This document shows positions 16,481-17,906 of a stretch of 22,591 bases of DNA, piece after piece (the first letter of the stretch is position 1; each line of letters opens with the position of its first letter). A program made the translations under genes and the position numbers. The DNA comes from a virus. A model generated the notes under the pieces. The model saw only the letters and a program-made list of their open reading frames with translations, had not been told where the DNA came from and made no database searches. The stretch is taken from positions 1 through 22,591 of IMG/VR virus record IMGVR_UViG_3300030102_000169, one strand, 5' to 3'.

Positions 16481-17473
16481 TTATATTATTAGTTCGCCTT
16501 GTTCGTCATACCAATCAGGATTGACGTAAGACCATTGATGACGACAATTGTAACCACCACGAACAACAAGAGGATTGCCAGATTTTTTGCCTGACCAACT
16601 TCTACTTGTCCAAAGTTTATTGACTTCATCAATTGTGAAAAGTCCATCTTTTCGTTTAGGTTTTATTACACCATTTATTATCTTTCTGCAAATATCTCTT
16701 GTGGTAGGAATTACATCTCCATAATATTTAACTAAAGTTAAACCAGCGTCCTGAGATTTGTTAAAGTTCAGGGTTGCATCAAAATCTCTTAGTGAATCGT
16801 TAAGTATTTGACCAGCATATCTTTTCATGTTTTCTCCAGCCCTATCTCTTGCAAACTTAGATTGTAGAGTTTGTATAGACTTATCAACTAGTGCTTGTTT
16901 TGATTTATCAAACTTATTATCATTTATATAATTAACTAATCTTTGTATTTCTGGGTCATCTGAACTAGCATAGATACCATTTATTGTTTGTCTTAGTTCT
17001 TTTTCTAATACTGCAAACTCACTACCAACTAATGTGTTTTGATAAACTTTTTCTGATAGTCGTCTTGTAAATGTATTAGATACATCTTTGAACTGAGTAA
17101 AATATTGTTGTTTTAGATTTTGTACTAATGCTAGATCGCCTTTAGTTAGTTCTTGAAACTCTACAGGAATATTACCAATTCTTTTAAATGCTTTTTCTAT
17201 TCGTTTAGCTTGTTTATTAAAACCCTCTCTAACAACTGTATCTGACCATTTAAGATATTCTTTTTCTAAGATAGCTTTTATCTTTGGCCTTATTGCTATG
17301 GCTGATTGTAGTTCAATTAACTTACCATCTGTTAAAGGTAATCTTGAAGCAGTAGCAACTACTTCTCGTTCTATTCTGTCTAAAGTTTTAATTAATGATT
17401 TGTAATATTCTGCTTCTGCAAGTTCTATTTGCTTGATTCGATAAAGGGTTACGTCTTTTACAATATCTGCCAT
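16481..17473 (-). CDS. Minor head protein, SPP1 gp7 / Mu F type
   Basis: A 330-residue head morphogenesis protein. The first 200 residues are helical. Residues about 255-325 match the conserved C-terminal domain of this family: TTRDIC (C262), later NPLVVRGGYNCRH with C310-R311-H312 and WSYVNP. The C...CRH arrangement is a known metal-binding-like signature of Mu F-like proteins. In SPP1, gp7 binds the portal and remains inside the head. Its usual neighbour is the portal gene; here a plus-strand gene of 70 residues is inserted between them. No clear ribosome-binding site is seen before the ATG, so it may have weak initiation. Confidence 0.8.
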   Translation of the reverse strand: MADIVKDVTLYRIKQIELAEAEYYKSLIKTLDRIEREVVATASRLPLTDGKLIELQSAIAIRPKIKAILEKEYLKWSDTVVREGFNKQAKRIEKAFKRIGNIPVEFQELTKGDLALVQNLKQQYFTQFKDVSNTFTRRLSEKVYQNTLVGSEFAVLEKELRQTINGIYASSDDPEIQRLVNYINDNKFDKSKQALVDKSIQTLQSKFARDRAGENMKRYAGQILNDSLRDFDATLNFNKSQDAGLTLVKYYGDVIPTTRDICRKIINGVIKPKRKDGLFTIDEVNKLWTSRSWSGKKSGNPLVVRGGYNCRHQWSYVNPDWYDEQGELII

Positions 17474-17521
17474 TTGTTCTAATTTTGTTCTATTTAGATT
17501 TTAAAAAAGTTAATAAATACG

Positions 17522-17594
17522 TTGTACATAAAAACTTATCTTTTGTACATGGATTTTCTTTAATGATTATTCAATTAGATTAAATTGATATTAT
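17522..17594 (+). promoter_or_regulatory. Putative promoter/operator region of the plus-strand gene
   Basis: The interval holds TTGTACAT at 17522-17529 and again at 17543-17550, exactly 21 bp apart (two helical turns); each contains the palindrome TGTACA. A dyad TCAATT N6 AATTGA spans 17571-17588. A -10-like TATTAT (17589-17594) follows, about 29 bases before the start codon. A convincing -35 is not seen at the usual distance. The arrangement suggests a regulated promoter, but no transcription start is proven. Confidence 0.4.
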
Positions 17595-17622
17595 AAATTA
17601 ACAAAAAAAAAGAGGAGTAAAA

Positions 17623-17835
17623 ATGAGTAAATCAAAAGAGTTATTAAAACATTTGTATGATGAGTTAGATTGGGTTTTAGATGATAAAATCAAATTTTTC
17701 AAAAAATCAAAAGATGAAGATGACGAAATACATTTGTCTTATTTAATATGGTTAAAATCAGAGGTTAAAGATTATTTAAAAATAAAAAAAACTAATAAAA
17801 TTATAGAAGAAGCTAATAAATCTATAAAACACTAA
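17623..17835 (+). CDS. Plus-strand moron-like small gene, function unknown
   Basis: A 70-residue, highly charged helical protein (MSKSKELLKHLYDELDWVLD, then FFKKSKDEDDEIHLSYLIWL and a Lys-rich C-terminal helix). It has no signal peptide, membrane span or helix-turn-helix that I can recognise. It is the only convincing plus-strand gene in the window and lies between portal and minor head protein, opposite to the direction of the operon. GAGGAG sits 5-6 bases before the ATG. A regulatory region lies upstream and an intrinsic terminator 45 bases downstream, so it is an independent transcription unit. That is the pattern of a moron, a gene that phages express from the prophage or in early infection for the host's or the phage's benefit. 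Its role (superinfection exclusion, anti-defence, regulation) cannot be read from sequence. Confidence 0.78.
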   Translation: MSKSKELLKHLYDELDWVLDDKIKFFKKSKDEDDEIHLSYLIWLKSEVKDYLKIKKTNKIIEEANKSIKH

Positions 17836-17879
17836 AGAGGAAAATTAATTATGCCTGATTGGTAGTTTATAATAAATAT

Positions 17880-17906
17880 AAGGCCATCTTTAAGGTGGCC
17901 TTTTTT
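17880..17906 (+). terminator. Intrinsic terminator of the plus-strand gene
   Basis: On the plus strand AAGGCCATC (17880-17888) pairs with GGTGGCCTT (17894-17902), nine pairs with one G-U, around loop TTTAA, followed by a run of T up to 17906. The T run overlaps the stop codon of the convergent portal gene (17905-17907). On the minus strand the hairpin is followed by a mixed A/T stretch, so it would be weak for the structural operon. Confidence 0.85.

Follow-up and report, generated by a model that had tools for sequence, protein, structure and literature searches.

An antisense slot for exchangeable small genes between the portal and minor head genes of HTVC111P/HTVC202P-type pelagiphages

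Why does one small plus-strand gene lie between two minus-strand head genes of a phage, and what might its product do? The question arises from a 22.6-kb virus record, analysed here over its full length (the window), in which a 70-codon gene (ORF70) is found between the portal and minor head genes and is opposite in orientation to both, as an earlier note on this DNA had described. Head and tail gene order in the window agrees with that of four isolates, and the best relatives of its portal are the Pelagibacter phages HTVC111P (96% amino acid identity), HTVC202P, HTVC112P and HTVC026P. The window is an HTVC111P/HTVC202P-type pelagiphage with SAR11 as its host group. The features at the junction are listed below.

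16481-17473, minus strand: minor head-like gene (putative MuF), 330 aa, assigned from position and relatives
17474-17492, minus strand: constant flank, serving as minor head leader; sense-strand sequence TAGAACAAAATTAGAACAA
17474-17622, plus strand: conserved upstream module (type C), 4 differences in 149 nt from HTVC202P
17522-17549, plus strand: TTGTACA-14-TTGTACA pair, operator- or promoter-like, kept in 4 of 4 ORF70 cassettes
17612-17617, plus strand: GAGGAG ribosome-binding site of ORF70, by direct reading
17623-17835, plus strand: ORF70, the slot occupant, 70 aa; homologues are HTVC202P gp29 and genes in L001 and L002
17851-17865, plus strand: micro-ORF M(P/S)DW-stop, 4 codons, with its own GAGG site
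17880-17902, plus strand: intrinsic terminator, followed by a T tail up to 17906 that enters the portal stop codon
17905-19317, minus strand: portal gene (phrog_145, 1.6e-61; Pfam SPP1_portal)

The 'gp7/MuF' name of the 330-aa protein is putative and derives from its position and a C-terminal motif; no Pfam match was found behind this label.

ORF70 is not a chance reading frame, since it has relatives in HTVC202P (gp29; 89% amino acid identity, at the same junction and in the same relative orientation) and in two IMG/VR contigs, with dN/dS values of 0.12-0.16 in all three pairs that point to purifying selection. The gene was found solely in this slot, in four phages; a profile-based search for distant relatives gave no more than the same two loci, and ORF70 was absent from the bacterial and archaeal genomes searched. 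Its ribosome-binding site and the intrinsic terminator were confirmed as the earlier note had read them, the terminator having a folding energy of -14.2 kcal/mol (z -4.5) that none of 200 shuffles equalled; an Rfam search of the region gave nothing informative. The upstream region that had been called regulatory-looking was borne out by its two TTGTACA copies and by its conservation, as the 149 nt upstream of ORF70 hold 4 differences between the window and HTVC202P against a dS of 0.32 in the gene, where about a quarter of synonymous sites differ (Fisher p 4e-5), and are more conserved than the synonymous sites. Among the loci compared the TTGTACA pair was limited to ORF70 cassettes, and no other IMG/VR contig had it at the pattern used. 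A scan of the plus strand at 17474-17622 gave no sigma-70-like promoter at a 9/12 threshold; the unit presumably has a promoter. The micro-ORF is kept behind ORF70 in all four cassettes although the surrounding sequence varies, and was missing from every other cassette and locus compared.

Junctions of relatives were collected from IMG/VR and isolates through two protein scans (portal and minor head) and one pattern scan, the last biased toward occupied alleles. This set held 105 distinct junction alleles, 52 empty and 53 occupied. The portal scan gave 24 occupied and 51 empty loci among 75, and the minor head (MuF) scan gave 27 occupied and 41 empty among 68 new loci. The junction had previously been held to be normally contiguous, which is correct for about 60-70% of relatives, the rest being occupied. 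Empty alleles have 3-4 nt from portal stop to minor head start (TAATGAATG or TAGATGAATG) while occupied alleles span 278-793 nt, and with no intermediate lengths the junction is bimodal. The slot is empty in the isolates HTVC112P and HTVC026P, is filled by ORF70 in HTVC202P and by an unrelated 152-aa gene in HTVC111P.

The slot holds one reverse-oriented small gene, rarely two, and every called occupant runs antisense to the head genes. BLAST clustering gave 29 groups of occupants; with one artefact removed, about 28 unrelated families remain. A second reverse ORF called in L001 and L002 was rejected as an artefact of reading through the terminator. Coding constraint in the other families is mostly clear, albeit weaker, with dN/dS from 0 to 0.58 where measurable. 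The earlier note had proposed this comparison, and it shows the unit to be present, absent or replaced by unrelated genes, always antisense; relatives do not all carry the same gene at the same place, and a conserved late gene is ruled out because ORF70 is absent or replaced in relatives. Base composition also sets the unit apart, with a GC content of 20.9% in the slot and 20.2% in ORF70 in comparison to 31.3% in the window, and a mean of 25.8% in occupied slots in comparison to 31.3% in portals.

Although their genes are unrelated, the cassettes share signals. The occupant ribosome site is GGAGAG in 41 of 52 first genes and GAGAGAG in 5. Upstream modules were classed as type A in 37 occupied alleles, type B in 8, type C (the window's) in 4 and other in 4, where one allele scored as other (L134) is a ninth type B module. 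Searching IMG/VR for an exact 17-mer of module A gave 54 stretches, of which 48 lie at this slot while six fall in unrelated sequence. A terminator stem stands directly behind the portal stop in 43 of the 53 occupied alleles; ten lack the shared terminator, including L043, whose junction was mis-set owing to a divergent portal end. One stem pair occurs as G-C, as C-G (in 4 of 4 ORF70 cassettes) or as A-T, always intact; the stem co-varies. On the other side, the coupled portal/minor head start (TAATGAATG) of empty alleles is replaced in occupied alleles by an SD-poor leader, TAGAACA(A/T)AATTAGAACAA, and positions 17474-17492 of this leader are common to type A and type C cassettes whose content is otherwise unrelated. 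The slot is therefore either empty or filled with a reverse small gene, usually between an upstream GGAGAG-type module and a terminator abutting the portal stop. An antisense unit with its own terminator would uncouple expression of its gene from that of the late head operon.

Recurrence of the upstream module and terminator around differing genes could alternatively mean that the transcript or the spacing matters and not the protein, in which case the cassette would be an element placed between portal and minor head as antisense or as spacer. Cassette gain does alter the leader of the minor head gene, and it may in this way alter translation of the minor head protein. This explanation is hardly probable, as the dN/dS of ORF70 given above is accompanied by conservation of its protein and ribosome site, and roughly half of the alleles have no spacer at all.

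Turnover at the slot is fast. On the two sides of the slot, the window matches the sister phage IMGVR_UViG_3300012920_000680 at 98.6% identity (4.7 kb) and at about 96% (4.5 kb), yet the two carry unrelated genes between the terminator and the TAGAACA(A/T)AATTAGAACAA leader. The terminator (17880-17906) marks the left boundary of the exchanged segment and the leader (17474-17492) its right boundary, where homology to the sister phage picks up again. When slot state was mapped on the portal tree, at least 25 changes were required, 13 of them forced by well-supported branches, and placement was near random; the three ORF70 carriers included in the tree did not group together. ORF70 genes are 89-92% identical in comparison to 82-86% for the carriers' portals; this closer likeness of the cassettes than of the portals beside them fits horizontal movement. 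Whole cassettes are thus gained, lost and swapped between near-identical phages, and homologous recombination, acting on the conserved flanks and modules, would account for this exchange.

Some slot families also occur elsewhere in these genomes. One family (L033), which includes HTVC026P gp07 (82%), was found in the left, early-type operon of eight further contigs near HTH, exonuclease and HNH genes, and several contigs have another family (L007) at places other than the slot, for the most part among similar neighbours. In the same contigs we also found homologues of the L008/L022, L115_2 and L130_2 families, as well as of the gene that fills the slot in HTVC111P. In total, about six of the 28 slot families are shared with the early-type operon region in this small sample, and their copies there lack the slot modules; ORF70 itself was not found in the early operon. 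The left operon is probably early, judging from its gene content. With about six of its families recurring in the siblings' early operon, the slot appears to draw on early accessory genes.

In the siblings' left operon (L207-L226) the promoter-proximal part is itself variable; it consists of small genes that have GGAGAG sites, and it shares several families with the slot. The slot modules are unlike the siblings' early promoters, and copying of the upstream modules from these was considered and rejected (best z about 3 in 36 comparisons, and inconsistent). Two further genes are annotated in antisense orientation, HTVC111P gp45 (L084, 18179-18331) and HTVC112P gp41 (L085, 19123-19269), each lying between the tail chaperone gene and the tape measure gene; they represent either a second slot or a misannotation opposite a frameshifted chaperone extension. 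A tblastn search of phage records with three occupants gave no match.

Precise occupied and empty alleles at one site would also fit a mobile gene that is selfish and does no more than tolerate the site, for instance a homing endonuclease or a small transposable unit. This is highly improbable, as about 28 unrelated families use one site and one set of flanking modules, some of the same families occur in the early operon without those modules, and no endonuclease or transposase family was matched at a convincing score; a homing endonuclease in particular was rejected.

The product of ORF70 had been called unrecognised, and it remained so in our searches, which gave no profile or Pfam match, no significant fold match and, against sequences of solved structures, one chance-level match. 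The AlphaFold model built from three sequences (pLDDT 85.6) is a two-helix hairpin of residues 3-27 and 32-68, and ORF70 is predicted to be a soluble helical-hairpin protein. Two-helix hairpins are a generic fold. Foldseek searches of viral models and the PDB returned nothing below E 0.46, and an Acb2/Tad1 hairpin protein was found at rank 45 (E 2.0, probability 0.21) among many generic hairpins. PADLOC anti-phage defence profiles gave no match for ORF70 and three marginal matches for other occupants (E 0.016 or worse), known anti-defence families matched no occupant, and the occupants gave neither an informative family match nor a convincing transmembrane segment.

Of the functions commonly ascribed to such inserts, membrane-based superinfection exclusion is disfavoured because ORF70 has no hydrophobic segment (maximum Kyte-Doolittle mean over 19 residues of 0.31), and a membrane-type exclusion protein was rejected accordingly. 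A host-benefit role in lysogeny is less likely because no integrase of the tyrosine or serine type could be recognised in four complete isolates, where neither Phage_integrase nor Resolvase gave a match. That a prophage expresses the unit as a moron, for lysogenic conversion or to exclude superinfecting phages, is therefore improbable on both grounds, and also given that ORF70 is absent from the bacterial genome collection, even though antisense accessory units in late operons are typical of temperate phages (PMC7067206) and the isolates have annotated HTH regulators.

In our preferred reading, the portal/minor head junction is probably a hypervariable moron slot in which ORF70, one of about 28 families, likely acts in counter-defence or host takeover. 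The occupants are present in some phages and absent from others, are exchanged fast, encode small soluble products and have families in common with the early-type operon; this would be the look of counter-defence or host-takeover genes, and for ORF70 such a role is most likely. Its helical hairpin would bind and inhibit a host factor, as may be expected for fast-turnover genes with slot-mates in the siblings' early operon. Weighing against this reading are the scan that called no sigma-70-like promoter for the window's unit, the unlikeness of slot modules and the siblings' early promoters, the failure to find ORF70 in an early operon or to match any occupant to a known anti-defence family, and the ten occupied alleles that lack the shared terminator. 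Alternatively, the occupant of the same slot may serve the physiology or regulation of infection, for instance by acting on transcription or translation in the host or on the early-late switch, and not against defence or takeover factors. The paired TTGTACA sites do suggest tight regulation, in the early operon some families have regulators as neighbours, and the failure of every occupant to match an anti-defence family would also suit a regulatory role. This alternative is nevertheless unlikely, as rapid turnover with about half of the alleles empty is a better fit to a conditional, host-dependent benefit than to a regulatory step of the core programme.

The term moron is said to come from the HK97/HK022 genomics of Juhala et al. 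in 2000. We use it as in PMC7067206, and file ORF70 as a moron-type unit, as the earlier note had done, on its position between genes that are adjacent in relatives (52 empty alleles), its own terminator and its base composition. Like phage morons, the unit is an extra gene between adjacent genes, antisense to the late operon, with its own terminator and lower GC. It differs from classical morons in that one site is reused by many families with largely constant flanking modules, and in that a promoter is presumed for the window's unit and the isolates yielded no integrase. P2-like phages and P4-like satellites have hotspots (PMC9122126) that are likewise fixed sites with exchangeable accessory genes, but these carry known anti-phage systems in temperate phages, whereas the slot holds single small genes in a late operon. 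Archaeal virus anti-defence genes (PMC11065993) resemble the slot in that many unrelated small genes follow a recurring upstream sequence; they are expressed immediately after infection and two have been validated, while the slot genes are candidates for such a role. HTVC010P-type pelagiphages (PMC10504331) also have a hypervariable region, which holds virion and lectin proteins, unlike the antisense small genes found here in another type of SAR11 phage. The open literature searched, which did not include the original paper on the isolates, gave no description of this slot, which is not proof of novelty.

Few organisms in the sea are as abundant as SAR11 bacteria and their phages. To our knowledge, little is known of how SAR11 resists phages or how the phages respond. 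The families of the slot can serve as a list of candidate proteins for counter-defence or takeover, to which pattern searches may add. A bolder view, put forward tentatively, is that the slot is a dedicated plug-in expression site, used by SAR11 phages to pass among one another a large stock of counter-defence proteins that are as yet uncharacterised and of which some have copies in the early operon. If this were true, the constant flanks of the slot would serve as bait for anti-defence genes directed against still unknown SAR11 defences.
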